Shown here: positions 8,611 to 36,498 of the stretch, piece by piece
Numbering within the stretch: the first letter of the stretch is position 1
How the letters are laid out: each line of letters begins with the position of its first letter
NCBI RefSeq assembly: GCF_010731695.1
Contig: NZ_AP022586.1
Coordinates: 496,001 to 560,000, forward strand
DNA from: Mycolicibacterium litorale
GTDB lineage: Bacteria; Actinomycetota; Actinomycetes; Mycobacteriales; Mycobacteriaceae
DNA: 64,000 nt
Direction of reading: 5' to 3'
Translations under genes and position numbers: made by a program
The notes under the pieces: generated by a model
Database searches by the model: none
What the model saw: only the letters and a program-made list of their open reading frames with translations
What the model was told of the DNA's origin: nothing

Positions 8611-8635
8611 GAGAATGAGGTTCTCCAAAGGAGAA
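8611..8635. promoter_or_regulatory. GAGAAT-N3-GTTCTC operator, site 1
   Basis: GAGAATGAGGTTCTC (8611-8625) is an inverted repeat with GAGAA/TTCTC arms 5 bp apart. It runs into a second perfect repeat TTCTCC-AAA-GGAGAA (8621-8635). The same 15-mer pattern recurs at 27349, 36338 and (degenerate) 36484. It lies 21-45 nt before the GTG of the hydrolase gene, so it should control the 8656 operon. No strong -35/-10 pair is visible here. Confidence 0.6.
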
Positions 8636-8655
8636 AGTGTCAGTATCGTAGGGCC

Positions 8656-9498
8656 GTGAGTTTTCAGCGCAAATCGGTCGCCGTCGACGGGCTGACCACC
8701 GGCTATCTCGAAGCCGGACAGGGCGATCCGGTGGTGCTGCTGCATGGCGGAGAATTCGGCGCCGGTGCGGAACTCGGCTGGGAGCGGGTGATCGACCAGC
8801 TCGCGCGGCGGCACCACGTGCTCGCCCCCGACATGCTCGGGTTCGGCCGATCGGCGAAGGTTGTCGACTTCACCGACGGCCGCGGGATGCGCATCCGCCA
8901 CATCGCAAGGTTCTGCGAGGTCCTCGGCATCCGGTCGGCCCACTTCGTCGGCAACTCGATGGGAGCGATCAACCTACTCGTCGACGCGACGTCGGAGGCG
9001 CCGGTGCTTCCTGCCCGCAGCCTCGTGGCCCTCTGCGGCGGCGGGACAATCCAGCGCAACGAGCACGCGAACGCCCTCTACGACTACGACGCGACGCTCG
9101 ACGGGATGCGCCGCATCGTCACCGCACTGTTCGCCGATCCGGCGTATCCGGCCGACGACGACTACGTCCGCCGTCGCTACGAATCGAGCATCGCTCCGGG
9201 AGCATGGGAGTCGTTGGCCGCAGCCCGCTTTCGTCGTCCCGGCCTCGAACCGCCACCACCCCCTTCGGCCAACCGGCCGTATGACCGCATCGCCGTGCCC
9301 GCCCTGATCGTCGAGGGCGAGCGCGACAAACTCCTGCCGCCGGGTTGGGCCGCCGACATCGCCGGCCAGATCGAAGGCGGACGGTCGGCCGTCACCGCGG
9401 CGGCCGGGCACTGCCCACAGATCGAACAGCCCACGGCCGTCACCGAGTTACTGCTCGAGTTCTTCGCCCACGTGCCCCAACGAAAGGTGCCCGCCTGA
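8656..9498 (+). CDS. Alpha/beta hydrolase, MhpC-like (C-C bond hydrolase type)
   Basis: The product has 280 residues. LLHGGEFGAGAE (residues 28-39) matches the oxyanion loop of meta-cleavage product hydrolases such as MhpC and BphD. The nucleophile is Ser101 in VGNSMGA, the acid is probably Asp in EGERDKLLPP, and the His lies in AAGHCPQIEQP near residue 258. The family hydrolyses vinylogous diketones from extradiol ring cleavage, and the MhpB-type gene at the window start would provide such a product; the link is inference, since other ester hydrolases share the fold. The GTG at 8656 follows operator site 1. The stop overlaps the next ATG by one base. Confidence 0.78.
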   Translation: MSFQRKSVAVDGLTTGYLEAGQGDPVVLLHGGEFGAGAELGWERVIDQLARRHHVLAPDMLGFGRSAKVVDFTDGRGMRIRHIARFCEVLGIRSAHFVGNSMGAINLLVDATSEAPVLPARSLVALCGGGTIQRNEHANALYDYDATLDGMRRIVTALFADPAYPADDDYVRRRYESSIAPGAWESLAAARFRRPGLEPPPPPSANRPYDRIAVPALIVEGERDKLLPPGWAADIAGQIEGGRSAVTAAAGHCPQIEQPTAVTELLLEFFAHVPQRKVPA

Positions 9499-10328
9499 TG
9501 ACCAACGAGTTGCAAGGGCGAGTCGCGATCGTCACCGGCGGGGCATCGGGTATCGGTCGCGGCATCGTCGAACGGTTCGTCGCCGAGGGCGCGAACGTCG
9601 TCATCGCCGACGTCCAGGACGAACTCGGTGCCGCGCTCGCCGAGCGGTCCGGGCCGAACGCGGTGTTCCGCCACACCGACGTGGGGGACCAGGACCAGAT
9701 GAGCGCGCTGGTGGACGCCACCGTCGAGCGGTTCGGCGCCCTGGACGTGATGGTCAACAACGCCGGGATCTCCAGCCCGCTGCGGCGGGGCCTGTTCAGC
9801 GAGGACCTGACCGAGTTCGACCGGGTGATGCGGGTCAACCTGCTCAGCGTCATGGCGGGCACCCGCGACGCGGGCCGGTACATGGCCGACCACGGCGGAG
9901 GCTCGATCATCAACCTCTCGTCGATCGGCGGAATCCAGGCCGGCGGCGGGGTTCCGGTGTACCGGGCGTCGAAGGCGGCGATCCTGCATTTCACCAAGTG
10001 CGCGGCCATCGAACTGGCGCACTACGAGATCCGGGTGAACTGCATTGCGCCCGGCAACATCCCGACACCCATCCTGCAGTCCTCGGCCACGGGACAGGAC
10101 CGTGAGCGACTCGAACGGTTCGAGGCCAGGATTCGCGCGCAGATGCGCGACGACCGGCCACTCAAACGCGACGGCACGCCTGAAGACGTGGCAGAGGCGG
10201 CGCTGTACCTGGCCACCGAGCGCTCGCGGTATGTCACCGGCATCGTGCTGCCCGTCGAGGGGGGCACGACCGCAGGCAAGGTCATGGTCCGCAAGCCCAG
10301 CCCGGAGGAGAACGGCGCCCGCCAGTGA
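9498..10328 (+). CDS. Short-chain dehydrogenase/reductase (SDR)
   Basis: This is a 276-residue classical SDR with TGGASGIG at 13-20, NNAG at 87-90, Ser141-142 and Tyr155-x3-Lys159 (VYRASKAA). Asp38 after the second strand (IADVQ) suggests NAD rather than NADP. The C-terminal 15 residues (KVMVRKPSPEE) go beyond the usual end. The ATG shares its first base with the stop of the hydrolase gene, so the two are one transcript. It likely oxidises a hydroxyl of the pathway intermediate; the substrate is unknown. Confidence 0.85.
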   Translation: MTNELQGRVAIVTGGASGIGRGIVERFVAEGANVVIADVQDELGAALAERSGPNAVFRHTDVGDQDQMSALVDATVERFGALDVMVNNAGISSPLRRGLFSEDLTEFDRVMRVNLLSVMAGTRDAGRYMADHGGGSIINLSSIGGIQAGGGVPVYRASKAAILHFTKCAAIELAHYEIRVNCIAPGNIPTPILQSSATGQDRERLERFEARIRAQMRDDRPLKRDGTPEDVAEAALYLATERSRYVTGIVLPVEGGTTAGKVMVRKPSPEENGARQ

Positions 10329-10331
10329 CTT

Positions 10332-10351
10332 TAAATCAGTCGCTTGACTTA
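10332..10351. promoter_or_regulatory. Inverted repeat before TetR/ferredoxin/P450 genes
   Basis: TAAATCA-GTCGCT-TGACTTA is a TAAnTCA-N6-TGAnTTA inverted repeat. It lies just after the SDR stop and before the most likely TetR start, in a short AT-richer stretch. It is a natural autoregulatory operator for the TetR encoded next. If the TetR started at GTG 10325 the repeat would be coding, so its presence argues for the later start. Confidence 0.5.
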
Positions 10352-10372
10352 CAATCGTCGGCCGAGTTGACT

Positions 10373-11032
10373 GTGAGCGTGACCACAGCAAGGACCGCGC
10401 GGGCTGAGCGTGCCAACAGCACCCAGGAGGCGATCCTGCGGGCCGCCGAACGGCTGTACGCCGAGCACGGCGTGTTCGCGGTCTCCAACCGCCAGGTCAG
10501 TGAGGCTGCGGGGCAGGGCAACAACGCCGCGGTCGGCTACCACTTCGGGACCAAGACCGACCTCGTGCGGGCCATCGAGTTCAAACACCGCGGCCCGATC
10601 GAACGGCTCCGTGAGAAGATGGTGGCCGATCTGGGGCCCGCCCCCGACATGCGTGACTGGGTGGCGTGCCTGGTCCGGCCGCTGACCGACCACCTCGCCG
10701 AACTCGGCAATCCCAGCTGGTACGCGCGGTTCGCCGCGCAGGTGATGACCGACCCCGCCTACCACAGCATGATCGTGCGCGACGCATTGTCGTCCCCGTC
10801 GCTGGTCGAGGTCATCAACGGCATCGGCGCCTGCCTGCCCGACCTGCCGCCCGACGTCCGCGCCGAGCGGAACATCATGGGCCGCAACCTGTTGATGCAC
10901 AGCTGCGCCGAGCGCGAACGCGGCCTCGCCGAGGGCGCCGCGGTGCCGCGCGCCTCCTGGGCCGGCGCGGCCGCCGGCCTGATCGACGCGATCGTCGGTC
11001 TGTGGCAGGCACCTGTCACCGAGGTGCCCTGA
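10373..11032 (+). CDS. TetR-family transcriptional regulator
   Basis: The product has about 219 residues. The helix-turn-helix lies within the first 65 residues (EAILRAAERLYAEHGVFAVSNRQVSEAAGQ, then VGYHFGTKTDLVRA), with NAAVGYHFG as the recognition-helix end. The C-terminal part is an effector-binding, dimerising domain. The frame is open from GTG 10325, which overlaps the SDR stop, but I choose GTG 10373 (10379 is nearly as good) because the inverted repeat at 10332-10351 would otherwise be inside the gene. The stop overlaps the ferredoxin ATG. It probably controls the ferredoxin/P450 operon. Confidence 0.8.
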   Translation: MSVTTARTARAERANSTQEAILRAAERLYAEHGVFAVSNRQVSEAAGQGNNAAVGYHFGTKTDLVRAIEFKHRGPIERLREKMVADLGPAPDMRDWVACLVRPLTDHLAELGNPSWYARFAAQVMTDPAYHSMIVRDALSSPSLVEVINGIGACLPDLPPDVRAERNIMGRNLLMHSCAERERGLAEGAAVPRASWAGAAAGLIDAIVGLWQAPVTEVP

Positions 11033-11226
11033 TGAGGATCACTGTCGACCAGGACAAGTGTGTCTCCTCCGGCCAGTGTGTGCTCAACGCCGCCGACGTG
11101 TTCGACCAGCGTGACGACGACGGCGTCGTCGAACTGCTCGTCGACCGCCCAGCCCCCGACCAGGAGGCGGACGTCCACCGGGCGGCCGCGGCCTGCCCAG
11201 CCCTTGCCATCCACCTCGAGGAGTGA
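11032..11226 (+). CDS. 3Fe-4S ferredoxin (P450 redox partner)
   Basis: This is a 64-residue ferredoxin with three cluster cysteines, Cys10, Cys16 (CVSSGQC) and Cys55 followed by Pro (AACPALAI). The absence of a fourth cysteine at the usual position indicates a [3Fe-4S] cluster. Such proteins pass electrons from a flavoprotein reductase to a P450. The P450 gene begins 4 nt downstream, so it is the obvious partner. No ferredoxin reductase is encoded in the window. Confidence 0.9.
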   Translation: MRITVDQDKCVSSGQCVLNAADVFDQRDDDGVVELLVDRPAPDQEADVHRAAAACPALAIHLEE

Positions 11227-11230
11227 CCAC

Positions 11231-12469: not shown

Positions 12470-12503
12470 CAGGTTGTCCCACAGCCCGATTGGAGCGCCA
12501 AAG

Positions 12504-17010: not shown

Positions 17011-17012
17011 CC

Positions 17013-25517: not shown

Positions 25518-26354
25518 CTACTTCAGGCAGCTGCCGCCGTCGATGGGCAGCGTGACACCGGTGATGTAGCGCGACTCGTCGGAAGCGAGGAACAGTACGG
25601 CGTTGGCGATGTCCTCGGGCTCGACCCACCCGATCGGCAGGGTGTGCATCAGCTGGCCGACGACCTTCATGTCCTCGGGGCCCGGGTTCTCCAGATCGGG
25701 GCGGAACAGCTTCATGGTGCCCTCGTTCATGAACAGCGGCGTGTTGACGTTGGTCGGGTGCACGGAGTTCACGCGGATGTTCTGCGGGCCGAGTTCGACC
25801 GCGAACGTCCGCATCAGGCCCACCACACCGTGTTTGGCCGCCACGTAGTGGCCGGTGTGCGGGTAGGCCTTGAGGCCGCCGACCGAGCTGGTGAGGATGA
25901 TCGAGCCGCCCCGGCCGCCGGCCAGCAGGTGGGGGACACCGGCTTTGACGGTCTTCCACACGCCGCCCAGGTTGACGTCGATCATGTCTTCCCAGTCGCC
26001 CTCGCTGGTCTTGTCCAGCGTCTCGCCGCCGTTGCCGATGCCGGCGTTGGCAACGATGATGTCGAGTCGGCCCAGCTGCTCGACACCGGCGTCCACGGCG
26101 GCCTTCAGCGCATCGAAGTCACGGGTGTCGACTTCGGCGGTGTAGATGCGTCGGTCGAGGTTCTTGACCAGGTCCGCGGTCTCGGCGAGATCCTCGGGCG
26201 TCGACAGCGGGATCCGGACGCTGTCGATCTGCTTGCAGATGTCGACGGCGATGATGTCGGCGCCCTCCTGCGCCAGCCGCACCGCGTGTGCCCGGCCCTG
26301 TCCGCGGGCCGCACCGGTGATGAATGCGACCTTGCCTTCTACGCGTCCTGCCAT
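25518..26354 (-). CDS. Mycofactocin-coupled SDR (carveol-dehydrogenase-like)
   Basis: This 278-residue SDR begins with MAGRVEGKVAFITGAARGQG, the signature of the mycofactocin-coupled subfamily in which NAD is held tightly and electrons pass to mycofactocin. The family insertion after the second strand (CKQIDSVRIPLSTPEDL) is also present. NAGIGNGG, TSSVGG and Tyr-x3-Lys in HYVAAKHG complete the active site. Relatives oxidise carveol and other cyclic or secondary alcohols. The mycofactocin biosynthesis genes are not in the window. The ATG start fits the family exactly. Confidence 0.9.
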   Translation of the reverse strand: MAGRVEGKVAFITGAARGQGRAHAVRLAQEGADIIAVDICKQIDSVRIPLSTPEDLAETADLVKNLDRRIYTAEVDTRDFDALKAAVDAGVEQLGRLDIIVANAGIGNGGETLDKTSEGDWEDMIDVNLGGVWKTVKAGVPHLLAGGRGGSIILTSSVGGLKAYPHTGHYVAAKHGVVGLMRTFAVELGPQNIRVNSVHPTNVNTPLFMNEGTMKLFRPDLENPGPEDMKVVGQLMHTLPIGWVEPEDIANAVLFLASDESRYITGVTLPIDGGSCLK

Positions 26355-26572: not shown

Positions 26573-27226
26573 TCAGATGCGGGCGAACCCGTGCGCGACG
26601 AAGTCCCAGACCTCGTCGGCGGTGATCGGATGGACGGAGCCGTCATCGGCGCCGCCGCTGGATTGAGCGACGAACATGACCGTCTGCATCGTCATCGCGG
26701 CCATCCGCTTGGGGTTGATCCCCTCCCGCAGTTGACCGGCGGCGCTGGCCTCTTCCATGAGCTCGGCGAGCAGGATGAGCAACGGCGCGTGCGCGACCTT
26801 GACCTCGGCGGGATGCGAGACGAGCAGACGCGGGGCGAAGTCGGTGAACAGCGGCCGTTTGGCGGCGGGATCCGGCCGCGAGGTCTCGAACAGCAGCTGA
26901 ATGGCCACTTTCAGACGCTCGATAGGGTCGGTGTGGCTGGCGGTGGCGGCCCGGATCTGGTCGGCCGACCGGCTCAGCGCATCCTCGAAGAGCGCCAGGA
27001 GCAGTTCGTGCTTACCGTCGAACTGCAGGTAGAAACTGCGAAGCGACTGCCGCGACCGATCGACCACCTCTTGCACGGTGAAATCCGTGCTGCCCTTCTC
27101 GATGATGATCGCCTGAGCGGCGTCGAGGAACCGCTGGACACGCTGCGCGGCGCGGAGTTTGGCGGTCTTGATCGACCGCTCGACGGCCCGCTGCTTCCAA
27201 GCCGGCTCTTCGCTGGGTGTGCTCAC
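26573..27226 (-). CDS. TetR-family regulator, candidate for the GAGAAT-N3-RTTCTC sites
   Basis: The product has about 217 residues. The HTH occupies roughly residues 25-75 (RFLDAAQAIIIEKGSTDFTVQEVVDRS then RSFYLQFDGKHELLLALFEDA), followed by an effector domain. The frame is open to 27319, but the extra N-terminus (PRRSPVQFIHVLPTRPGFEL) does not look like a TetR arm, so I choose GTG 27226 (VSTPSEEPAWKQRAVERS). The divergent 187-nt region contains a perfect copy of the shared palindrome at 27349-27363, and GGAGAAC half-sites at 27253 and 27276. This makes it the best candidate for the shared regulator. Confidence 0.8.
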   Translation of the reverse strand: MSTPSEEPAWKQRAVERSIKTAKLRAAQRVQRFLDAAQAIIIEKGSTDFTVQEVVDRSRQSLRSFYLQFDGKHELLLALFEDALSRSADQIRAATASHTDPIERLKVAIQLLFETSRPDPAAKRPLFTDFAPRLLVSHPAEVKVAHAPLLILLAELMEEASAAGQLREGINPKRMAAMTMQTVMFVAQSSGGADDGSVHPITADEVWDFVAHGFARI

Positions 27227-27330
27227 CGGCAGCTCGAAGCCTGGCCGAGTCGGGAGAACATGAATGAACTGTACCGGAGAACGCCTGGGCATAGTGGTCC
27301 GAGCCCCCCTCGCGGCCAACGTGTCGGAGA

Positions 27331-27363
27331 TTGTGCCTTCCTCATGGCGAGAATAGTATTCTC
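27331..27363 (+). promoter_or_regulatory. Promoter with GAGAAT-AGT-ATTCTC operator, site 2
   Basis: TTGTGC (27331-27336) and TAGTAT (27354-27359) are 17 bp apart and form a plausible promoter for the acyl-CoA dehydrogenase gene at 27414. The -10 is embedded in a perfect 15-bp palindrome, GAGAATAGTATTCTC (27349-27363). A repressor bound there would block the promoter, and the palindrome also offers TACTAT on the other strand for the TetR gene. Confidence 0.65.
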
Positions 27364-27413
27364 AGATTGTGCGTTAGAGAAGCGTTTCCCCAGAGAGCAA
27401 ACCCGGGAGTGCC

Positions 27414-28595
27414 GTGCAGCTGACTTTCGACGCCGACGTCGAAGCTTTCCGCGCCGAGTTCGTGGCGTTCCTCGATGCACACCAGCCCCGGGAGGCCGAC
27501 GCGGCGCAGCGCCCCCGATCCTCGGCCGACGTGCCGGAGTGGGCCCGTCGCTGGCAGCGCCTGCTGTTCGACAACGGCTGGCTGCTGCCCGGTCATCCGC
27601 CCGAGTTCGGCGGCCGCAACGCCACCATCCTCCAGCAGTACGTTCACCAGCTCGAGCTGTCGCGGCGGCGCATCTACCAGAGTTTCAACCCGCAGGGCGT
27701 GGGCATCATCGCCGCGTCCCTGATCTCGTTCGGCACGCCCGAACAGCAGCGAAAGTGGGCGGTGCCGATCCTGCGCGCCGAGCTCACCGCCGCGCTGGGG
27801 ATGAGTGAACCGGGCGCCGGTTCGGACCTCGCGTCGCTGCGCACCAGGGCCGTGCGCGCACCGGATTCCGGCCACTACGTGGTCAACGGGCAGAAGGTCT
27901 GGACGTCGGGGGCCAATGAGGCCGACGTCATCCTCACCTTCGTGCGGACCGATCCGGATGCGGCCAAACACCGCGGCATCAGCGTGCTGATGATCCCCAC
28001 CGATTCCCCCGGTGTCGTCCGCCGTCCGTTCGCGTCAATCTGCGATGCCGACGAGAAGGACTTCAACGAGGTCTTCTTCACCGACGTCGAGGTGCCCGCG
28101 GAAAACCTGATCGGCGCCGAGAACGACGGGTGGCGGGTGGCCAACGGGTCACTGGGGCACGAGCGCACGATGCTGTGGCTCAGCTACGGCGACCGGCTGC
28201 AGGATCTGATCGACGACTTCCCGGCCCGCACGGCGCTCGACCGCGACCACTACGCCACCATGGTCATGGACTCGATGGCGCTGCGGCTGCTCGGTTCGGT
28301 CGCGCTCGCCCGGGCAGCGCGCGGGATCGACGACGGCGCCGCCCTGTCGGTGCTCAAACTGCTGGGCTCCGAGGCCGGGCAGGCCGCCACCGGACACGCA
28401 CTGGCCGCGGCCGGGGTGGAGGGTCTGGCACACCCCACCACGGTCGGGCCGTGGACGCCGCTCAACCTCGACGCCTACTCGTGCGGCTGGTTCGAGCGGT
28501 ACACCCGCAGCTTCGCCGGCACCATCGCCGGCGGCACATCGGAGATCCAGCGCAACATCGTCGCCCAGCGACTGCTCGGATTACCCAGGAACTAG
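27414..28595 (+). CDS. Acyl-CoA dehydrogenase (FadE)
   Basis: The product has 393 residues. The FAD/substrate blocks are GMSEPGAGSDLASL and VNGQKVWTSGANEADV, and the C-terminal block is GTIAGGTSEIQRNIVAQRLLGLP, with Glu in the usual catalytic-base region. It introduces a 2,3 double bond into an acyl-CoA and passes electrons to ETF. The type resembles the subunits of heteromeric actinobacterial dehydrogenases used for steroid side chains. The GTG has GGGAGTGCC in front. It is followed 9 nt later by a crotonase, the next beta-oxidation step. Confidence 0.9.
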   Translation: MQLTFDADVEAFRAEFVAFLDAHQPREADAAQRPRSSADVPEWARRWQRLLFDNGWLLPGHPPEFGGRNATILQQYVHQLELSRRRIYQSFNPQGVGIIAASLISFGTPEQQRKWAVPILRAELTAALGMSEPGAGSDLASLRTRAVRAPDSGHYVVNGQKVWTSGANEADVILTFVRTDPDAAKHRGISVLMIPTDSPGVVRRPFASICDADEKDFNEVFFTDVEVPAENLIGAENDGWRVANGSLGHERTMLWLSYGDRLQDLIDDFPARTALDRDHYATMVMDSMALRLLGSVALARAARGIDDGAALSVLKLLGSEAGQAATGHALAAAGVEGLAHPTTVGPWTPLNLDAYSCGWFERYTRSFAGTIAGGTSEIQRNIVAQRLLGLPRN

Positions 28596-28604
28596 AGGAG
28601 AAAC

Positions 28605-29387
28605 GTGTACATCGACTACGAGGTCGCCGACAAGATCGCGACCATCTCGCTGAACCGGCCCGAGGTGGCCAACGCGCAGAACACCGAACTCCTCGACGAA
28701 CTCGACGCGGCGTGGACGCGAGCCGCCGAGGACCCCGAGGTCGTCGTGATCGTGCTGCGCGCCAACGGAAAACACTTCTCCGCCGGCCACGATCTGCGGG
28801 GCGGCGGCCCGGTGCCCGACAAGATCACCTTGGAATTCATCATCGCCCACGAGTCGAAGCGCTACCTCGAGTACACGCTGCGGTGGCGCAACGTGCCCAA
28901 ACCGTCGATCGCCGCCGTGCAGGGCCGCTGCATCTCCGGCGGGCTGATGCTGTGCTGGCCCTGTGATCTGATCCTCGCCGCAGACGACGCCCTGTTCTCC
29001 GACCCGGTCGCGCTGATGGGGATCGGCGGGGTCGAATACCACGGCCACACCTGGGAATTGGGGCCGCGCAAGGCCAAGGAGATCCTGTTCACGGGCCGGC
29101 CGCTGACCGCCGAGGAGGCCGAACGCACCGGCATGGTCAACCGGGTGGTGCCCCGCGACGACCTCGACGCCGAGACCCGCGCGCTGGCCGAGCAGATCGC
29201 CGCGATGCCGCCCTTCGCGCTGCGGCAGGCCAAGCGGGCGGTCAACCAGACTCTCGACGTGCAGGGCTTCTACGCCGCGATCCAGTCGGTGTTCGACATC
29301 CACCAGACCGGTCACGGCAACGCGTTGAGCGTGGGCGGATGGCCGGTGCTGGTCGACCTCGACAAGATGAAGAGCACCGTCCAGTAA
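28605..29387 (+). CDS. Enoyl-CoA hydratase/isomerase family protein
   Basis: This 260-residue crotonase has ATISLNRPEVANAQ, then KHFSAGHDLRGGG and the oxyanion segment VQGRCISGGLMLCWPCDLILA. In the third motif, FSDPVALMGIGGVEYHG, Val replaces the usual catalytic Glu after Pro, so the chemistry may differ from simple hydration. The ribosome site AGAGGAG lies 7 nt before GTG 28605. It follows the acyl-CoA dehydrogenase in the same operon. The stop is followed by a palindromic repeat that may act as a terminator. Confidence 0.85.
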   Translation: MYIDYEVADKIATISLNRPEVANAQNTELLDELDAAWTRAAEDPEVVVIVLRANGKHFSAGHDLRGGGPVPDKITLEFIIAHESKRYLEYTLRWRNVPKPSIAAVQGRCISGGLMLCWPCDLILAADDALFSDPVALMGIGGVEYHGHTWELGPRKAKEILFTGRPLTAEEAERTGMVNRVVPRDDLDAETRALAEQIAAMPPFALRQAKRAVNQTLDVQGFYAAIQSVFDIHQTGHGNALSVGGWPVLVDLDKMKSTVQ

Positions 29388-29403
29388 TCGGGTCACCTCG
29401 CCT

Positions 29404-29470
29404 CCGCGAGCGTGCGCGTCTGCACCCGACGCGCCGCGGTTTCCGCAGCACATTGTGCACGGTCACGCGG
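29404..29470. repeat. 65-67 nt palindromic repeat, copy 1
   Basis: The unit starts CCGCGAGCGTGCG, has a central CGCCGCGGTTTC block and ends in a degenerate inverted arm (TGCACGGTCACGCGG). It matches the reverse complement of copy 2 at 30439-30503 over most of its length. It lies between the crotonase stop and the stop codon of the AbiEi-like gene on the opposite strand, so it may also serve as a bidirectional terminator. Confidence 0.65.
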
Positions 29471-30359
29471 CGCGAGGGTGCCGAAGCTGATGGTCGATTC
29501 GCGCCACGAAGTCCCAGGCGCGGTGCCGCACGTCCTCGAACACTATCGGGATGACCACCCAGCCGACGTCCATCAGCGCTGACTGACGACGGCGGTCCGC
29601 ACGCATGGCCTCCGGTCCGCTGTGCCAGTCGACTCCGTCGTACTCGACCGCGACGCGCTGATCCGGCCAGGCGAAGTCGAGCCGCCGCACCTCGCCGTTG
29701 CCGTCGACGACCGCGAACTGCAGCTCCGGTGACGGTAGACCACCGTCGATCATGGCGAGCCGGGCCTCGCTCTCCAGTGGGGACTCGGCTCGCGGATCGG
29801 CCAGCGGGAGGAGGTCGCGGACGGCGACGATGCCTCGCCTGCCGGCCTGTTCGATTGCCGCGCGCCACAATTCGCCCCGGCTGACGGTCTTGCTGCGCAG
29901 TGCCGCGTCGAGAGTGGCCAGGGCGCGCGGACGACGAAGGCCGCGTGCCACTTCGACCGCCGTCCACGCGGGCGTCGTCGCACGCCGCTCGCCGGTTGAC
30001 ACGAGCGGGGCGCCGTCGCGCCGGTGCACGACCAGCCCGTCGACCGGGCGCAGTTGGTGCCCCGGCGGGTTGAGCACGTGCAGCTCCTTGGGCTCCTCGG
30101 TGTCGAAACCGAACAGCGCCGCGGCGGTCGCCAGACACACCGCGATGCGGGTGCCGCAGGCCAGGTCGAGCCCGCGCAGACGCATCTCGTCGGTCGGTTC
30201 GCCCAAGCAGTACACACCCTGCCAGATGCGTTCGACGTACTTGCGTTTCACCACCGCTTCGAACTCGTATCGCGATGTGACGGCGAGGATCTGGCCGCTC
30301 GTCGCGACGCCACCCTGTCTGTCGAATATCCGCTGCAGTGCTTCGTCCATGGCGGCCAT
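29463..30359 (-). CDS. AbiEi-like/DUF559 protein, PD-(D/E)xK-type C-terminus
   Basis: The product has 298 residues. The N-terminal 80 residues resemble AbiEi-type winged-helix antitoxin/regulator proteins (GVATSGQILAVTSRYEFEAVV, then VYCLG). The C-terminal 110 residues resemble DUF559/Vsr-type endonuclease domains: Glu in SPLESEARLAM, then RRLDFAWPDQRVAVEYDG with the Asp and Glu spaced as in PD-(D/E)xK enzymes, and a C-terminal VIPIVFEDV strand. Such genes occur in many copies in mycobacteria with no proven role. It is alone, unrelated to its catabolic neighbours, and flanked on both sides by the same palindromic repeat in opposite orientation. Confidence 0.7.
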   Translation of the reverse strand: MAAMDEALQRIFDRQGGVATSGQILAVTSRYEFEAVVKRKYVERIWQGVYCLGEPTDEMRLRGLDLACGTRIAVCLATAAALFGFDTEEPKELHVLNPPGHQLRPVDGLVVHRRDGAPLVSTGERRATTPAWTAVEVARGLRRPRALATLDAALRSKTVSRGELWRAAIEQAGRRGIVAVRDLLPLADPRAESPLESEARLAMIDGGLPSPELQFAVVDGNGEVRRLDFAWPDQRVAVEYDGVDWHSGPEAMRADRRRQSALMDVGWVVIPIVFEDVRHRAWDFVARIDHQLRHPRAA

Positions 30360-30438
30360 CGTCGGTCGGGCCGCGAGGTCAGGACAGCACCAACCATGCC
30401 GCCTGTGGATGAATCAGCGGCTGTGCACGGTCTCAGTG

Positions 30439-30503
30439 CCGCGAGCGTGCGCAAAGTGCCGGCGAAACCGCGGCGTCTCGTGGGCAGACACGCACGCTCG
30501 CGG
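30439..30503. repeat. 65-nt palindromic repeat, copy 2
   Basis: Perfect 13-nt arms CCGCGAGCGTGCG (30439-30451) and CGCACGCTCGCGG (30491-30503) enclose a 39-nt centre containing CGAAACCGCGGCG. The unit is the inverted counterpart of copy 1 at 29404-29470. It lies in the 172-nt gap between the start of the AbiEi-like gene and the end of the long minus-strand operon; the remaining sequence of that gap shows nothing. Confidence 0.7.
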
Positions 30504-30531
30504 TAAGAGGTAAAGAGGTGGGGAGGTGCTT

Positions 30532-31332
30532 CTACAGGTTGGCCAGCCGGGGCGCCGAGCCGCGGGCCCGCAGCCCCGCTCCCGCTCGGCGCGTGAGTTC
30601 GCGTGAGCTGCCCAGCAATCCGTCGAGTACCAGTGTCCGCTTCACGTGGATGTGCAGATCGTGTTCGGCGGTGAAACCGATTCCGGCGAGCACCTGCTGG
30701 CAGTTCCTGGCCGCCGTCAGCGCCGCCTTCCCCGCGGCGGCCTTGGCCAGCAGCGCGTTCAGGTCGGGGTTCTCCGAGCCGGGCAGCGTCAGCGTGGCCT
30801 CGGCGCCCTCGATGGCCACCAGCGTCTCGGCCAGCCGGTGCCTCACGGCTTGGAACTGGGCGATGGGCCGGCCGAACTGCACCCGGTCCTTGGCGTGCCG
30901 GCACGCCAGCGTCAGCATCGCCCTGGCCGATCCGACCAGCCACCAGCCGACCGCCATCCGCGCCTCGGCCACCCGGATGGGATAGCCCTCCTCCTCACGG
31001 CGCAGCGGCAGCCCGCCGAGTGTCGGATCGGCGCTCTGCGCGCTGATCCGGTCCCACACCACCCACGCGTTGCCGGCGTACGGCAGCGGCAGCTCGACGG
31101 TGTCGCCGATCGTGTTGCCGGTGGCGTGCAACACGACGTCGACGAGAACCGAAGCGTGCGAACCGGTCTCACCGAGAAGCCGGAACACCAGCGGCACGGC
31201 CGTTTCGGGCATGTCGGTCAGCATCTCGGCCCAGCCGAGTTCGGTGAGCGCGGCGTCGAGGTCGGGGCCCGACGCCGTCAGCATGGTCTTGCGCAGAGAT
31301 GCTTCGAGCATGTCGAGTGATTGTCGGTCCAC
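30532..31332 (-). CDS. Acyl-CoA dehydrogenase, short subunit
   Basis: This 266-residue protein is about 110 residues shorter than a standard FadE. It keeps the C-terminal helical domain (CRHAKDRVQFGRPIAQFQAVRHRLAE, then IGFTAEHDLHIHVKRTLVLDGLLG), but the N-terminal helical domain is reduced. Actinobacterial steroid dehydrogenases work as heterotetramers of two unlike FadE subunits, and this gene directly follows a full-size partner. GTG 31332 is chosen because GGAAGGAG lies 5 nt before it; an in-frame GTG at 31338 touches the ribosome site. It is the last gene of the 36317-30532 operon. Confidence 0.85.
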   Translation of the reverse strand: MDRQSLDMLEASLRKTMLTASGPDLDAALTELGWAEMLTDMPETAVPLVFRLLGETGSHASVLVDVVLHATGNTIGDTVELPLPYAGNAWVVWDRISAQSADPTLGGLPLRREEEGYPIRVAEARMAVGWWLVGSARAMLTLACRHAKDRVQFGRPIAQFQAVRHRLAETLVAIEGAEATLTLPGSENPDLNALLAKAAAGKAALTAARNCQQVLAGIGFTAEHDLHIHVKRTLVLDGLLGSSRELTRRAGAGLRARGSAPRLANL

Positions 31333-31334
31333 GA

Positions 31335-32462
31335 TCACTCCTTCCCGAGGTCGAGCAGGCGGCGGGCGATGATGTTGCGCTGCACCTCTGCGGTGCCGCC
31401 GTAGATGGTGGCCGCCCGGGAGTACAGGTATTCGGTGCGCCAGTCGGTGTCTTCGAGTTCGACGGCGCCGGGCAGCAGATCGCGCGCGGTGTCGTAGAGG
31501 CGCTGTTCGGCGCCGGCCAGCAGCACCTTGTCGATGGAGGTCTCCGGTCCGAGCTTGTGTCCTTCGGCCAGCCGATACTGGGTGGCGCGCGAGCGGCACC
31601 GCAGCGTGTGCAGCGCCAGGTAGACGTCGCCCATGTCGACGTCCACGGCCTGCCCGATTCCCTTGACCTCGCCGATCAGCGCGTCGAATCGCGAATACAG
31701 GTAGGCGATCCGCTGCCAGAAGCACGTCGAGCGTTCGTAGGGCAGCAGGTCCATCGCCAGCCGCCATCCGTCGCCGGGCCGGCCGAGCATCCGGTCGGCG
31801 CCCACCACGACGTCGTCGAAGTAGACCTCGCAGAACTCGTCGACGCCGTGCATGGTGTGCAACGGACGCACCGAGATCCCCGGCGTGTCCAGGTCGACGA
31901 AGAACGCGGTGATCGCCTCGTGGTCGGGGATGTCCGCACCACCGGTGCGGGTGAGCAGGATGCAGCGGTGCGAGTACTGGGCGAAGCTGGTCCACACCTT
32001 CTGGCCGTTGATCACCCACTCGTCGCCGCGCTGCACCGCACGCGTGGTCAGCGACGCCAGGTCACTGCCGGAGCCTGGCTCGGAGAACCCCTGGCACCAC
32101 TGCTCTTCGCCGCTGAGCAGTTTCGGCACCATCTCGGCGGCCAGCTCGGGGGAGGCGTAGTCGATCATCGTGGGCGCGAGCACCTCGAGCATCGAATACG
32201 GTCCGGGCTCGGCCAGCCGGCGGCCCACCACCTCCTCGCCGACGATGGCCCGCAGGATCGCGGGCCCGCCGAGCCCGCCGGCGCGTTCGGGCCAGCCGTA
32301 GCGCATCCAATCGGCGTCGTAGAGTGCGCGCTGCACGCGGGCGAACTGGCGCATGTGGCCCTGCAGCGAGTGGTCGTCCGGCGGCTCGACCAAGCCCGAG
32401 TTCTCGTCGAGCCAGCTCCGCAGTGCCGTCCGGAACGCGGCGGGCTCCAACAGGTCAGTCAT
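31335..32462 (-). CDS. Acyl-CoA dehydrogenase, full-size subunit
   Basis: This is a 375-residue acyl-CoA dehydrogenase. It contains YGWPERAGGLGG, then CQGFSEPGSGSDLASL, INGQKVWTSFAQYSH and a C-terminal IYGGTAEVQRNIIARRLLDLG. The N-terminal, middle beta and C-terminal helical domains are all present. With the short subunit starting 3 nt after its stop, it probably forms an alpha2beta2 enzyme. The ATG at 32462 overlaps the stop of the SnoaL-like gene by 4 nt; an upstream open extension to 32630 lies inside that gene and is not used. Confidence 0.88.
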   Translation of the reverse strand: MTDLLEPAAFRTALRSWLDENSGLVEPPDDHSLQGHMRQFARVQRALYDADWMRYGWPERAGGLGGPAILRAIVGEEVVGRRLAEPGPYSMLEVLAPTMIDYASPELAAEMVPKLLSGEEQWCQGFSEPGSGSDLASLTTRAVQRGDEWVINGQKVWTSFAQYSHRCILLTRTGGADIPDHEAITAFFVDLDTPGISVRPLHTMHGVDEFCEVYFDDVVVGADRMLGRPGDGWRLAMDLLPYERSTCFWQRIAYLYSRFDALIGEVKGIGQAVDVDMGDVYLALHTLRCRSRATQYRLAEGHKLGPETSIDKVLLAGAEQRLYDTARDLLPGAVELEDTDWRTEYLYSRAATIYGGTAEVQRNIIARRLLDLGKE

Positions 32463-32896
32463 CCGGCTTCGGGTCTCCCTATCGCGTGGGGGCGCCCGGA
32501 GTCGTGGTCCCCGGAGCGCCGGATGAACGTCATCGCACGGGTTTTCAGCCGCCAGCCGCCCGCGGTGCGGACGTAGGTGTCGTTGTAGTAACCGATGCGC
32601 ATGTCGTGCTTGGAATGCTCGATGAAGCACAGCGGCTGGGTCCCGCTCGCCGTGTCGGCGCCTTCGGTCAGGTCCACCAGCGCCGTGCCGGTCATGAACA
32701 GCCCCTTGGGCGCCGCGTCCACCAGCACGGGGAACCGGTTGAGCGTGTAGGTCTCGCCGAATGCGCTGTAAGTGCCGTCGGGGGTGAAGACGCTGGTCAG
32801 TCCGTCGATGTCGCCCTGGGTGATGGTGACGGCGTACTTGGCGAGCAGCTGGTGGATCTCGACCAGATCCTCAGTTCGTGTCGGTGTCGTGCTCAT
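32459..32896 (-). CDS. SnoaL/NTF2-like protein
   Basis: The 145-residue product has the NTF2-like cone fold: LVEIHQLLAKYAVTITQGDIDGLTSVFTPDGTY at the N-terminus, and the C-terminal YNDTYVRTAGGWRLKTRAMTF strand pair typical of SnoaL_4. Members are small dehydratases, isomerases or beta subunits of Rieske oxygenases. Because a Rieske alpha subunit is encoded in the same operon, a beta-subunit role is possible, but the standard beta-subunit signature is not obvious. The start overlaps the amidohydrolase gene by 26 nt. Confidence 0.75.
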   Translation of the reverse strand: MSTTPTRTEDLVEIHQLLAKYAVTITQGDIDGLTSVFTPDGTYSAFGETYTLNRFPVLVDAAPKGLFMTGTALVDLTEGADTASGTQPLCFIEHSKHDMRIGYYNDTYVRTAGGWRLKTRAMTFIRRSGDHDSGRPHAIGRPEAG

Positions 32897-34109
32897 TCTT
32901 GTAGACCTTACCGCCCTTCATTACAAAGTCGACATCGCGTGTAACGCCGATGTCCGCCAGGGGGTCGCCCGGCACCGCGATGATGTCGGCGAGGTAGCCG
33001 ACGGCGAGGCGACCGAGTGAATCGGACCGGTTGATCAGATCCGCGGCGACGACCGTCGCGGCGCGCAGCACCGCCGCGGGCGGCATACCCCACTCGACGA
33101 GCGTGACGAGTTCATCGGCGTTGCGGCCGTGGGGGATTGCCGGTGCGTCGGTGCCGACGGCGATCTTCACGCCCGCTTCGTAGGCGGCCTTGATCGACGT
33201 CCTGGCCTTCGGGAACATCTCGGCGGCCTTGGCCTGCAACTCCGGGGGCGCCTTCGAGACGTCCATGTACTCGGCGAGCCGCCGGGTGGTGACGAGGAAC
33301 CGGTCGTTGTCCACCAGCATCCGGATGGCCTCGTCGTCCATCAGGAAGCCGTGCTCGATGCAGTCGATCCCGCACGCCACGGCATGTTTGACGGCCTCGG
33401 CGCCGTGGGTGTGCGCGGCCACCCGCATCCCGCGCCGGTGCGCCTCGTCGACGATGGCCCGCAGTTCCTCGTCCGAATAGTGTTGTGCGCCTGCCTCTCC
33501 GGTCAGCGACATCACCCCGCCGGACACACAGACCTTGATCAGCTGAGCACCGTGTTTGATCTGGTAGCGCACCGCCTTGCGGATCTCGTCGACACCGTTG
33601 GCGATGCCCTCCTCGACCGTCAGTTCGAGGGCGCCGGGCATGAAGGCGGCGAACATCGTCGGGTCGAGGTGTCCGCCGGTGGGGGTGATCGCGTGTCCGG
33701 CCGGGACCACCCGGGGCCCGTCGATCCAGCCGGCGTCGATGGCCTTGCCCAGCGCGACGTCGAGCAGGTATCCGCCGGTCTTGACGAACAGCCCGAGGTT
33801 GCGCACCGTGGTGAACCCGGCGCGCAGCGTGCGCCGGGCATTGCCGACCGCGCGCAGCACCCGGGTCGGGGGATCGTCCTGCACCTGCGACAGGCCCGGG
33901 TTCTCCCCCCGGCCGCCCATCAGGAGGTTCACCTCCATGTCCATCAGACCGGGCAGCAGGATGGAGTCACCGAGGTCGATCACGTCGGCGCCGGCGGGCA
34001 CGTCGCCGCCCACCGACACGATGCGATCACCGTCGACGGTGACGACGCCGGGGCGGACGATCTCCCCGCTGTCGACGTCGACGTATCCGGCTGCCTTGAG
34101 GGTGAGCAC
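32871..34109 (-). CDS. Imidazolonepropionase-like amidohydrolase
   Basis: This 412-residue amidohydrolase has a small N-terminal beta-sandwich (GYVDVDSGEIVRPGVVTVDG), DSILLPGLMDMEVNL where cyclic hydrolases usually carry HxH (here MEVN, so the first metal pair is altered), VAAHTHGAEAVKHAV and IEHGFLMDDE, then VGTDAPAIPHG with the catalytic Asp. The GYLADIIAVPGDPL ending is typical. It may hydrolyse a cyclic amide, ester or lactone. GTG 34109 lies 2 nt after the stop of the companion-protein gene with GAGG directly before it, so translation is probably coupled. Confidence 0.8.
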   Translation of the reverse strand: MLTLKAAGYVDVDSGEIVRPGVVTVDGDRIVSVGGDVPAGADVIDLGDSILLPGLMDMEVNLLMGGRGENPGLSQVQDDPPTRVLRAVGNARRTLRAGFTTVRNLGLFVKTGGYLLDVALGKAIDAGWIDGPRVVPAGHAITPTGGHLDPTMFAAFMPGALELTVEEGIANGVDEIRKAVRYQIKHGAQLIKVCVSGGVMSLTGEAGAQHYSDEELRAIVDEAHRRGMRVAAHTHGAEAVKHAVACGIDCIEHGFLMDDEAIRMLVDNDRFLVTTRRLAEYMDVSKAPPELQAKAAEMFPKARTSIKAAYEAGVKIAVGTDAPAIPHGRNADELVTLVEWGMPPAAVLRAATVVAADLINRSDSLGRLAVGYLADIIAVPGDPLADIGVTRDVDFVMKGGKVYKNEHDTDTN

Positions 34110-34111
34110 CT

Positions 34112-34441
34112 CTAGACCACCGGCTCCTTGATCAGTTTGATGTAGGCCGCACCGCTGTCGAGGACACGCGGCTGCTTCCACACCTCGACGGGGAAACTCA
34201 CCATCACGATCGACTGGCCCAGGTGCACGAGTGCCTTCGCGTCCTCGGGCATGCCCTTGAGCGGGAAGCGGGCGTCGACGTAGACCATGATGTCCTCGAG
34301 TCGGGCCATTCCGGCGTCGTAGAGCTCCTGCATCTCGTCCATCGTCGAGTTGAGCCGCTTGGCGTACCGCTCCTCCTCGGTGGGCAGGCACCAGTCGGAG
34401 AACCGCTCCAGGTCGGCGAATTCCTCGGGCAGCTTAGACAT
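34112..34441 (-). CDS. Small conserved Rieske-companion protein, copy A
   Basis: I do not recognise a named family for this 109-residue protein. It aligns along its length with the 107-residue product at 51186, which is also encoded directly after a Rieske oxygenase alpha subunit with the same overlap style. Shared positions include LPxEF near the N-terminus, RYxKRxNSxM, YVD and a C-terminal VSxxVExWKQPRVxxS. It is predicted mainly helical, without signal peptide or membrane segment. It overlaps the oxygenase gene by 8 nt, so it is made with it, and a role as small subunit or assembly factor is my inference. Confidence 0.75.
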   Translation of the reverse strand: MSKLPEEFADLERFSDWCLPTEEERYAKRLNSTMDEMQELYDAGMARLEDIMVYVDARFPLKGMPEDAKALVHLGQSIVMVSFPVEVWKQPRVLDSGAAYIKLIKEPVV

Positions 34442-35780
34442 TGGCGTGATCCTTCTCGGCAGAACTGGCGTGTCCATTCGTGGCGCTCGCGGTGGCACTG
34501 CCGTCGGCCAGTGACGCCTTGTACCGATCCACGTACTGGTGTGCGGTCATGTGCAGGTGACGCAGCAGGATCTCCTGGTCGCACAGCGGGAAATCCGTGA
34601 CGACGCGGGTGCCGATCTGGGTCTGGGTGGCCTCCAGGGTGTTGGCGTCCTGGAACGCGTACTCCTTGAACGTCACCGCGGCCAGTTCCTGAGAGAGCCG
34701 CTGCCGCAGGTTGGTCGGTGGCACGAAGTACAGGTCGGCTTCGAAGATGTGCTTGTCCACCGCGGTGGGCCAGTAGTTGTAGGTCAGATACCAGCCCGGC
34801 GCCCAGAACAGCAGCGTGAAGTTGGGGAAGAACTCGAACGAGTCTGTGCCCCAGCTCTTGTGGCGCCCCGGGTTGATGGCGGGCGGCAGCTCGTCGGGCA
34901 GAATGCCCTTGATGTTCGGCCGGTCCCACGGGCCGAACAGCCCGCTGTGCAGGATGCGCTCGATCGGCTTGACCATGTTGAGATCCTTCGGCGGGGACAT
35001 CCCGCCCCACGACGACACCATCGAGTGGTCACCCTTGATGTCGTAAGCCAGGGCCTCGAAGCCGAACTTGGCCAGCTTCTCGGCCTCCTCCTTCTCCGCC
35101 TGCTTCATGTGCAGGATCGGCGCGTGGTAGAACTCGGTGAACGCGTCGATGAACAGCTTCCAGTTCGCGTTGATCTCCGCGCGGTAGCTGTAGTGCTCGG
35201 TCATCTCGTGGAACGGGTAGCCCTCGAGGCCCTTCGCGAAGTCGCCGAGGTATTCGCGCAGCGGGATCGCGTCCTTGTCGAAGTTGATGAAGATGAAGCC
35301 TTCCCACACCTCGCAGCGGACCGGCACCAGGCCGTACTGCGCCTTGTCGAGGTCGAAGAACTCGCCTTCCTGCTGGACGAAGGTCAGGTCGCCCTTGAGG
35401 TCGTAGCGCCACGCGTGGTACTTGCAGACGAACTGGCGGCAGGAACCGGACACCTCTTCGCCCGGGAAGTCCGACCACACCAGCTTGTTGCCGCGGTGAC
35501 GGCAGAAGTTGTAGAACGCCCGCACCTCGTTGTCGGTGCCCTTGACGATGATCACCGACGTCCCGGGCCCGGCGCAGGGCATCTCGCGGGTGAAGTAGCT
35601 GCCCTTCTTCGGCAACTGCTCGACGCGGCCGACCTTGAGCCAGGTCTTCTTGAAGATCGCCTCCTGCTCGAGCTTGAAGTGCTCGGGGTCGATGGAGTCC
35701 TCGTAGTTGACCGGCGCCGTGCCGAGTTCCGGCCAGTTCTCGGTCCAGCTACCGGCGGCCGGTTTCGGAAAATGTGCCAC
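34434..35780 (-). CDS. Rieske non-heme iron oxygenase, alpha subunit (A)
   Basis: The product has 448 residues. The Rieske [2Fe-2S] ligands are Cys93 and His95 (CRHRGNK) and Cys119 and His122 (CKYHAWRYD). The mononuclear iron site is NWKLFIDAFTEFYHAPILH with His219 and His224. These oxygenases use electrons from a reductase to hydroxylate or dihydroxylate hydrophobic rings; no reductase or ferredoxin gene lies next to it. The C-terminal 20 residues are a low-complexity Ala/Ser/Asn tail. GTG 35780 has GGAGAGG 9 nt in front. It is a paralogue of the 49903 product. Confidence 0.93.
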   Translation of the reverse strand: MAHFPKPAAGSWTENWPELGTAPVNYEDSIDPEHFKLEQEAIFKKTWLKVGRVEQLPKKGSYFTREMPCAGPGTSVIIVKGTDNEVRAFYNFCRHRGNKLVWSDFPGEEVSGSCRQFVCKYHAWRYDLKGDLTFVQQEGEFFDLDKAQYGLVPVRCEVWEGFIFINFDKDAIPLREYLGDFAKGLEGYPFHEMTEHYSYRAEINANWKLFIDAFTEFYHAPILHMKQAEKEEAEKLAKFGFEALAYDIKGDHSMVSSWGGMSPPKDLNMVKPIERILHSGLFGPWDRPNIKGILPDELPPAINPGRHKSWGTDSFEFFPNFTLLFWAPGWYLTYNYWPTAVDKHIFEADLYFVPPTNLRQRLSQELAAVTFKEYAFQDANTLEATQTQIGTRVVTDFPLCDQEILLRHLHMTAHQYVDRYKASLADGSATASATNGHASSAEKDHANV

Positions 35781-35786
35781 GGTTCG

Positions 35787-36317
35787 TTACCTCTCCTGGT
35801 CGGGTTCTACGCCGAATGTGTTGATGGCCATGGCCAGCGCGCCATAGCAGCCGATGGTGAAGACGAGATCCATACGCTGGCGCTCGTCGAGATGGGCGCT
35901 GAGCTCGGCCCACGTCTGGTCGGAGATGTTCGCCTTGTCCTGCAGTTGGTCCACCGCGTCGAGCACCGCCTGGTCGAGCTCGTCGGCGCCCCGTCCCTGG
36001 GCGGCACCCTCGATGGCGGCGTCGGTCAGCCCGACCTCGCGGCCCATCGAGACGTGGTGGCGCCACTCGTACTCCGAGCCCAGCACATGCGCGACCCGCA
36101 GGATCGCCAGTTCGCGCAGGCGGTCGGGCAGCGTGGACCGGAACAGCAGGTGGACGTTGAAGCGCAGGAAGGCTCGGGTGAGGTGGGGGTGGCGAACCAG
36201 CGTGGCCAGCAGGTTTCCCGCCGCTTCGGGGTTGAGCCGCTCCTCGGGGAGCATGACCGACAGTGCGCGCAGCACGTCGTCGTCCCACTGATCCGCCGGC
36301 AACGGGGCCAGGCGCAC
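35787..36317 (-). CDS. Carboxymuconolactone decarboxylase-like (CMD/AhpD) protein
   Basis: This 176-residue, mainly helical protein has the CMD pattern: LPDRLRELAILRVAHVLGSEYEWRHHVSMG followed by LTDAAIEG. The usual AhpD CxxC is absent (SEYEWRHH instead), so a peroxidase role is unlikely and a decarboxylase- or hydrolase-like role is more plausible. It is the first gene of a seven-gene minus-strand operon, 19 nt downstream of operator site 3 and 6 nt before the Rieske gene. GTG 36317 has GAGGAGACGCCC in front. Confidence 0.78.
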   Translation of the reverse strand: MRLAPLPADQWDDDVLRALSVMLPEERLNPEAAGNLLATLVRHPHLTRAFLRFNVHLLFRSTLPDRLRELAILRVAHVLGSEYEWRHHVSMGREVGLTDAAIEGAAQGRGADELDQAVLDAVDQLQDKANISDQTWAELSAHLDERQRMDLVFTIGCYGALAMAINTFGVEPDQER

Positions 36318-36336
36318 GGGCGTCTCCTCTCAGTGA

Positions 36337-36353
36337 TGAGAATCAGGTTCTCA
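36337..36353. promoter_or_regulatory. GAGAAT-CAG-GTTCTC operator, site 3
   Basis: TGAGAA-TCAGG-TTCTCA is a perfect 6-5-6 inverted repeat 20 nt upstream of the CMD-like gene. It is the third full copy of the shared 15-mer (36338-36352). It should govern the 30532-36317 operon. A clear -35 hexamer for the minus strand is not visible. Confidence 0.65.
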
Positions 36354-36467
36354 TTTCTGCCTAACAGGTTTCCACACGACGTGCACGATGGTCAATACGG
36401 GCGCCCGAGGTGCCCGCGTCCGTGTGTCTCCACATGCCGCGCGTACTGCGGTAATTGTTCACCGACA

Positions 36468-36498
36468 TTGATTCTCCCGCAGTGAGAAGATAGTTTTC
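36468..36498 (+). promoter_or_regulatory. Promoter with degenerate operator, site 4
   Basis: TTGATT (36468-36473) and TAGTTT (36491-36496) are 17 bp apart and form a good promoter for the amidohydrolase gene at 36550. GAGAA-GATAG-TTTTC (36484-36498), one mismatch from the shared palindrome, overlaps this -10 just as at site 2. An extra TTCTC half-site lies at 36472. The 231-nt divergent gap (36318-36549) otherwise holds no gene. Confidence 0.6.

Follow-up and report, generated by a model that had tools for sequence, protein, structure and literature searches.

A conserved palindrome as the likely operator of a TetR-family regulator in a catabolic region of Mycolicibacterium litorale

What controls the catabolic genes in a 64,000-nucleotide stretch of the Mycolicibacterium litorale genome, and could a single regulator govern them? 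The stretch, referred to at its full length as the window, covers contig 496001-560000 of a single-contig genome of 5,579,510 bases. Bare numbers are window coordinates, genome coordinates are preceded by "contig", and G and L numbers denote genomes and loci. An initial annotation had drawn attention to a palindrome, GAGAAT-N3-RTTCTC, at four promoters (8611, 27349, 36338 and 36484) over 28 kb, and had proposed the TetR-family gene at 26573-27226 (tetR, encoding the 26573 TetR) as the master regulator. Sequence comparison shows GAGAAY-N3-RTTCTC, the general form of the palindrome, to be a conserved promoter element, and it is likely the operator of the 26573 TetR. This regulator would then govern, as a single regulon, both its own gene and catabolic genes spread over more than 130 kb. 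All four sites were found, the fourth with two mismatches:

8611..8625, + strand: putative operator GAGAATGAGGTTCTC, 30 bp upstream of the hydrolase gene at 8656
27349..27363, no strand assigned: putative operator GAGAATAGTATTCTC, a perfect palindrome between tetR and fadE, covering the fadE -10 TAGTAT
36338..36352, - strand: putative operator GAGAATCAGGTTCTC, 20 bp upstream of the carboxymuconolactone-decarboxylase-family (CMD)/Rieske operon (first gene 35787-36317)
36484..36498, + strand: putative degenerate operator GAGAAGATAGTTTTC, two mismatches, 51 bp upstream of the 36550 amidohydrolase, covering the -10 TAGTTT
26573..27226, - strand: TetR-family regulator, predicted to bind the palindrome; 217 amino acids from a GTG start; Pfam TetR_N at 31.2 bits against a cut-off of 24

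A genome scan had been suggested as a check, and was run with the exact pattern. The search for GAGAAT-N3-RTTCTC (GAGAATNNNRTTCTC) returned 16 strand rows, which correspond to 11 distinct places, and the reversed pattern returned 0. Eight of the 11 places fall within contig 482791-616742 (134 kb, 2.4% of the genome), and all eight are intergenic. The sites are therefore clustered in one region and intergenic there, rather than equally common in genes; their true extent, with exact sites from contig 482.8 to 616.7 kb, is wider than the 28 kb first described. As the genome is TA-poor, the reversed pattern is a weak control, and a control with permuted half-sites was therefore added. This was applied to 173.6 kb around the window (approximately 174 kb), in which genes were called by a simple codon-usage script. 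In this stretch GAGAAYNNNRTTCTC has eight exact matches, 8/8 intergenic, against an intergenic share of 6.7% of bases by these gene calls, whereas 59 permuted half-sites of the same composition gave a mean of 0.03 exact matches (largest 1). Both matches with one mismatch are also intergenic, as are 7 of the 25 with two mismatches (controls: mean 1.0, largest 5 intergenic). Within the window alone, 72 matches with up to three mismatches were counted against a shuffled mean of 39.8 (100 shuffles, largest 62). The genome-wide count of two-mismatch matches, at least 58 per strand against 4 for the reversed pattern, was not used.

The position of the palindrome relative to tetR was followed through the named mycobacterial loci, the best 80 of 405 tetR relatives in the genome collection. 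The closest of these, judged by the 26573 TetR, are Mycobacterium sp. IS-1742 and IS-1496 (98% identity). An exact GAGAATA(C/G/A/T)TATTCTC lies upstream of tetR in 80/80 loci, at 123 bp in 69, 122 bp in 7, 125 bp in 3 and 114 bp in 1. The TetR hallmark of a palindrome adjoining the regulator's own gene is thus present, as a candidate operator at the sequence level, in all 80. An additional GAGAAYNNNRTTCTC is found no more than 500 bp behind tetR in 50 of them. In the alignment of the tetR/fadE intergenic region from the 80 loci, the palindrome arms are 100% conserved, against 75% elsewhere. Across 78 of the loci (two shorter than 8 kb were excluded), 197 of 211 exact sites are intergenic, with intergenic bases making up 11%. 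A further 28 loci (L150-L177) were checked for sites, 18 from the same genus and the 10 best-scoring from six other genera. All ten loci of the other genera carry an exact site upstream of tetR as well as a downstream site (9 exact, 1 with one mismatch).

Orthologous promoters had been named as a second check, and were compared over the 250 bp upstream of each filter-passing ortholog in the 80 loci. Conservation is seen at tetR, fadE, the Rieske operon and the degenerate 36484 site. Exact upstream sites occur in 80/80 tetR, 54/54 fadE and 72/72 CMD/Rieske first-gene orthologs. The operon-internal genes g57-g61 and g42-g47 have none, and g62 has one (1/74). An exact site precedes the second gene of the fadE unit in 24/44 orthologs, and the short-chain dehydrogenase/reductase (SDR) gene at 25518 in 7/78, or 22/78 with up to one mismatch. 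Orthologs of the 36550 amidohydrolase have an exact site in 31/56 cases at 173-232 bp, which is positionally the site of the divergent Rieske operon. Closer to the gene, within 105 bp, the degenerate form GAGAAG(A/C)TA(A/G)TTTTC is retained in 35/56 (three forms: 17, 15 and 3). The best match has three mismatches in another 16/56, roughly half being of that type, and four or five in the remaining 5/56. In the same test, the best match at five control genes mostly has four or more mismatches. Since the degenerate form is kept across orthologs, it suggests that 36484 is a predicted operator of deliberately lower strength.

These comparisons bear on the idea that the palindrome is a repeat that has spread, or has arisen by chance, and plays no regulatory role. 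Only the lineage-specific sites (8611 and contig 570239) and an in-gene match at contig 1624345 would fit such an origin. Just the 15 bases are common to the sites; spacer and flanks vary in a position weight matrix of 55 sites. The invariant arms at tetR, the near-zero permuted controls and the orthologous promoters likewise speak against a repeat, which makes this origin extremely improbable. Chance alone was rejected through the 59 permuted half-sites.

The distribution of the palindrome across genomes is also patterned. Sites were counted in 198 genomes of the same genus, the M. litorale genome included, as exact matches on the better strand, with tallies sorted by hand from tables; the species overlap with those of the named loci. 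The counts are bimodal, with at least four exact sites in 159/198 genomes, 0-2 in 39/198 and none at three. An ortholog of the 26573 TetR (E<1e-80) is present in 158/159 many-site and 5/39 few-site genomes (Fisher 1e-31). Family-wide, a TetR match at E 1e-20 occurs in 65/251 genomes and 10/31 genera, one genus by a distant match only. Three TetR-carrying genomes of other genera have 9, 7 and 10 exact sites; in two control genomes of other genera, which lack a TetR match at 1e-20, the count is 0.

A number of observations weigh against the palindrome being the operator of the 26573 TetR. This TetR is kept in five genomes that have 0-2 exact sites (G026, G056, G063, G089 and G178). Near tetR, no exact or one-mismatch site exists in G026, G063 or G089, with weaker remnants visible in G026 and G089. 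In G178 a one-mismatch site is close to tetR, and in G056 an exact one lies upstream of it. Conversely, G148 has many sites yet no TetR match at E<1e-80, in an assembly of 700 contigs. One fetched tetR copy of the two in G101 is without a site, and in the same-genus loci L165, L170 and L175 the upstream site is of the GAGAAC form and located 85 bp ahead of the start. The one-mismatch match at contig 1624345 falls inside a gene. Six other genomes were mapped (G020, G151 and G006 of the same genus; G340, G314 and G417 of three other genera), and nine of their 55 exact sites adjoin no homolog of the query genes used. Of the four promoters first named, the 8611 site has no counterpart among these 55, nor has the contig 570239 site of the P450 gene at contig 570268. 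Two other regulators inherited along with the region co-occur with the sites just as strongly. These two and the 26573 TetR were the regulators compared for presence and absence, and at least five further TetR genes and a helix-turn-helix (HTH)/cupin gene at 6154 lie in the region.

As a separate observation, the genomes of G089 and G063 (L056 and L060) measure 3.2 and 4.5 Mb, and their TetR frame is still open.

The last two points raise the question of whether another regulator, in or outside the region, binds the palindrome, with the 26573 TetR being merely one of its targets. Other regulators in the region include the TetR at 10373, an IclR at contig 492296-493033, TetRs at 43650, 48117, 59723, 61600 and contig 609729, and the HTH/cupin protein at 6154. 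TetR-10373 (threshold E 1e-40) is found in 153/159 many-site and 1/39 few-site genomes, and the IclR (E 1e-60) in 151/159 and 0/39. Both co-occur with the sites about as strongly as the 26573 TetR, with similar Fisher p-values. Co-occurrence alone was consequently rejected as proof for the 26573 TetR, and the argument for it is drawn from the position lock, from the exceptions and from the other genera. TetR-10373 is missing from 6/159 many-site genomes and the IclR from 8/159. Four genomes, each 100% complete by score (G137, G149, G154 and G157), have neither, yet retain the sites and the 26573 TetR. Either protein as the sole regulator was rejected, as many-site genomes without either exist. 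The 80/80 position lock, which also holds in six other genera, is that of the 26573 TetR, the one regulator for which the lock was examined. Binding by a different regulator is thus unlikely. The position lock, an almost invariant DNA-binding domain, the co-occurrence and the dispensability of these rivals support the 26573 TetR as the probable master regulator.

It was also noted that many orthologous matches to the IclR gene (L013:11296-12033) contain one in-frame TAG within the aligned stretch. Perhaps its true start lies further downstream.

The 26573 TetR itself allows longer starts, up to a TTG at 27319, and many database copies are of 239 amino acids. Residues 7-38, 40-45, 47-58, 60-87 and 90-95 do not vary among 110 orthologous rows, of which 88 are distinct, and they cover nearly all of the DNA-binding domain. 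The predicted model is an all-helical TetR fold with a ligand-binding domain, as in known TetR-family repressors. The many tied rows of the fold comparison include drug-, resorcinol- and acyl-CoA-binding repressors and so single out no ligand type. Sequence searches gave general TetR matches only, and the names in the protein collection were equally general (among the matches listed, 120 of 4598).

Does the placement of the palindrome fit repression? The initial annotation had described an overlap with the -10 box at two sites, and both promoters are present, TTGTGC-17-TAGTAT at 27349 and TTGATT-17-TAGTTT at 36484. A third, TTGCAG-17-TACGAT at contig 616728, lies before the amidohydrolase at contig 616765, with its predicted -10 likewise within the palindrome. 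A -35/-10 scan of the remaining exact sites gave no such promoter pair overlapping the palindrome. The spacer of the tetR/fadE site is TANTAT in 80/80 named loci, as expected if it were operator centre and -10 box at once; this is not so in the ten loci of other genera. Two sites each are also found at two other divergent pairs (contig 584933/585056 and 591081/591234), with 585056 as the sole exact one.

Exact sites in the 174 kb lie 14-76 bp ahead of a start codon, and at several genes other than those with a -10 overlap the distance is 14-37 bp. The -10 overlap and this closeness to start codons amount to a repressor geometry. A few TetR-family proteins act as activators, and the 26573 TetR could bind the palindrome as an activator or a dual regulator. 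It has a weak match to FasR, a named activator in NCBIfam (33 bits against a cut-off of 330), and sites far from the start codon exist, at 236-248 bp from a korA-like gene. Set against the repressor geometry, an activating or dual role appears quite improbable.

The most likely account, drawn from the combined analysis, is an autoregulated TetR regulon that is repressed until a pathway intermediate binds. In such a system, a TetR dimer would bind both half-sites and block RNA polymerase. A pathway intermediate, perhaps a coenzyme A (CoA) thioester as for KstR and KstR2 of the same family, would then release the TetR. The strong sites, together with conserved weaker ones such as 36484, may set graded repression.

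Which genes belong to the regulon was judged from the cross-genome map. Homologs of the genes of M. litorale, some weakly similar, adjoin 46 of the 55 exact sites. Four promoters have a site in 7/7 genomes (the M. litorale genome and the six others; 4 genera): tetR, the CMD/Rieske first gene, the amidohydrolase g152 (contig 616765) and the SDR/thiolase/MeaB group. The ferredoxin/acyl-CoA ligase promoter has one in 6/7. Five core promoters thus emerge, at tetR/fadE, the CMD/Rieske operon, SDR/thiolase, ferredoxin/acyl-CoA ligase and the amidohydrolase. The genes behind the window sites are as follows:

27414..28595, + strand: acyl-CoA dehydrogenase (FadE), divergent from tetR
28605..29387, + strand: enoyl-CoA hydratase/isomerase, in the fadE unit
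35787..36317, - strand: CMD-family protein, first gene of the Rieske operon
34434..35780, - strand: Rieske ring-hydroxylating oxygenase, alpha-subunit type
32871..34109, - strand: amidohydrolase (Amidohydro_1), Rieske operon
30532..32462 (30532-31311 and 31335-32462), - strand: acyl-CoA dehydrogenase-type gene pair, Rieske operon
36550..37848, + strand: amidohydrolase (Amidohydro_2), heading a unit with FadE, SDR and CoA-transferase
8656..10328, + strand: alpha/beta hydrolase and SDR, the first genes behind the 8611 site
10373..11032, + strand: second TetR, in the hydrolase/SDR unit

A gene at 29463-30359, located between fadE/echA and the Rieske operon, matches the MTES_1575-type nuclease domain weakly, scoring under the curated cut-off; it has a filter-passing ortholog in just 9/80 loci.

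By Pfam and NCBIfam, the products of the region include acyl-CoA ligases, acyl-CoA dehydrogenase pairs, enoyl-CoA hydratases, thiolases, a ChsH2-type OB protein, class III CoA-transferases, a Rieske oxygenase, P450s, amidohydrolases and an MhpA-type hydroxylase above cut-off. A gene for a MeaB-type GTPase follows the thiolase that is located downstream of the contig 488561 site. At contig 490657-492264 a KstD-like FAD-dependent enzyme scores 412 bits against the 3-ketosteroid dehydrogenase equivalog cut-off of 789, and its closest solved structure is a 3-oxosteroid 1-dehydrogenase (E 7e-93). That equivalog, a mark of steroid clusters for which this was the sole gene tested, was rejected here. 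The acyl-CoA dehydrogenase pair at contig 484266-486156 has a larger member closest to Tcur3483, a solved enzyme with a role in steroid metabolism. A split B12-dependent acyl-CoA mutase at contig 478454-480452 (L012:12454-14452) has 2-hydroxyisobutyryl-CoA mutase as its closest solved relative, and in G340 the mutase ortholog is preceded by an exact site at 157 bp. The ligases, dehydrogenase pairs, thiolases, Rieske oxygenase, P450s, KstD-like flavoprotein and adjoining B12 mutase together suggest a cyclic, possibly isoprenoid or branched, substrate.

The mutase promoter of M. litorale has no exact palindrome; only a second element, GGTATTGGCATTCTC (GGWAWTGGCATTCTC), is found there, with two copies in the divergent promoter. 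This asymmetric 15-base element shares one half-site with the palindrome and occurs at contig 478265, 478413, 614314, 615093 and 619495 (L012 and L016). It is present in 151/159 many-site genomes and 0/39 of the others. At contig 478413 and 615093 it forms TTGGCA-17-TANNNT, and it may represent a promoter with an embedded half-site.

Three exact sites lie outside the cluster. The first is 96 bp before a BipA/TypA gene and also inside a doubtful 72-codon frame. The second is 248 bp before a KorA-like 2-oxoacid:ferredoxin oxidoreductase gene (L019:8520-8534), approximately 140 kb past the last site of the cluster; it recurs at 245 bp in G020 and 236 bp in G151. The third lies between two divergent luciferase-like genes. 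There is also a one-mismatch match at contig 2510297, between a thiolase and a luciferase-like gene, and the degenerate sites L022:3134 and L022:8298 adjoin an SDR gene and the divergent thiolase/luciferase-like pair at contig ~2.51 Mb. These genes may also belong to the regulon. The homolog of the contig 2.51 Mb thiolase in G151 has an exact site 38 bp before it. Weak outlying matches were also seen at contig 218948, 3362299 and 3362396.

Overall, the analysis makes a single testable regulon out of catabolic genes that span more than 130 kb and are loosely annotated, and it names a candidate regulator and supplies a short operator. The candidate regulon is widespread, with sites in 159/198 sampled mycobacterial genomes, and is absent or nearly so in 39. 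The operator also yields likely member operons beyond gene order, including possible units hundreds of kilobases away. More speculatively, and with considerable doubt, this could be a large TetR regulon, the third after those of KstR and KstR2, present in most mycobacteria and in other Mycobacteriaceae. It would serve an undescribed full pathway for a cyclic isoprenoid in which a quaternary carbon is rearranged by the B12-dependent mutase, with one CoA-ester intermediate opening the region through graded operators.

In the literature searched by gene content, regulator or motif, with most subscription journals and all figures outside the search, no description of this regulon was found among the papers listed. 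A search for the motif letters gave no fitting title among those listed, and the single paper matched in further searches of this kind was a KshA study with KstR sites. In a 2015 survey of mycobacterial TetR motifs with M. tuberculosis-numbered regulators, neither half-site is given in the main text, where the motifs are shown as logos (PMC4482099).

A closer candidate is "motif X" of Mycobacterium sp. VKM Ac-1817D, which its authors attribute to the Rv0767c ortholog and locate at phytosterol-induced genes. In the accessible text of that study, motif X is palindromic, TetR-linked and located at 14 operons, at genes without KstR or KstR2 sites, with two of its sites adjoining KstR sites (PMC6593523). 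These features resemble the palindrome described here, but the operons listed (a steroid delta-isomerase, four P450s, and alcohol and aldehyde dehydrogenases; PMC6593523) are unlike the core found in M. litorale. Rv0767c binding sites are given in the available portion of another report as GAC/GTC-rich and TAA/TTA-poor (PMC10312376), unlike GAGAAT/ATTCTC. Identity with motif X is accordingly highly unlikely, the two being set apart by target list and description in these partial sources rather than by a comparison of letters.

The KstR regulon is alike in that a TetR-family regulator acts on a short palindromic operator repeated at many catabolic promoters, and its gene types include acyl-CoA dehydrogenases, ligases, thiolases and oxygenases. 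It serves cholesterol catabolism in mycobacteria and rhodococci. It differs in its operator, which is absent from the 173.6 kb, and in its regulator, the protein here falling outside the KstR equivalog family. The 26573 TetR was rejected as a KstR equivalog, with NF033703 at 20.7 bits against a cut-off of 280. The KstR2 regulon, for the steroid C/D rings, shares the TetR family, a small promoter set and acyl-CoA dehydrogenase genes, and for one acyl-CoA dehydrogenase here the closest match is IpdE2, at 118 bits against a cut-off of 450. The accessible text of PMC8228715 gives the KstR operator consensus as TNNAACGTGTTNNA and that of KstR2 as AAGCAAG-NN-CTTGCTT. Within the 173.6 kb, TNNAACGTGTTNNA has 0 matches and its relaxed form TNNAACNNGTTNNA has 3; the KstR2 consensus and its relaxed form GCAAGNNCTTGC both have 0, which sets the KstR2 regulon apart. 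The earlier impression that the motif belongs to neither KstR nor KstR2 is therefore borne out by both operator and protein family.

The KstR3/HBC operon of Mycolicibacterium neoaurum is alike in having a TetR repressor of aldolase and DUF35 protein genes, and a possibly comparable thiolase-like/ChsH2-type pair lies at contig 612666-614250 here. As far as the available text of that study goes, deletion of kstR3 significantly changed seven genes, of which four, at its own operon, went up and three went down without a clear link (PMC10398937). The same text places kstR3 inside its operon and gives no operator sequence (PMC10398937). The mark of that system is a regulator in one operon with atf1, chsH4 and chsE6; the 26573 TetR is divergent from fadE/echA.

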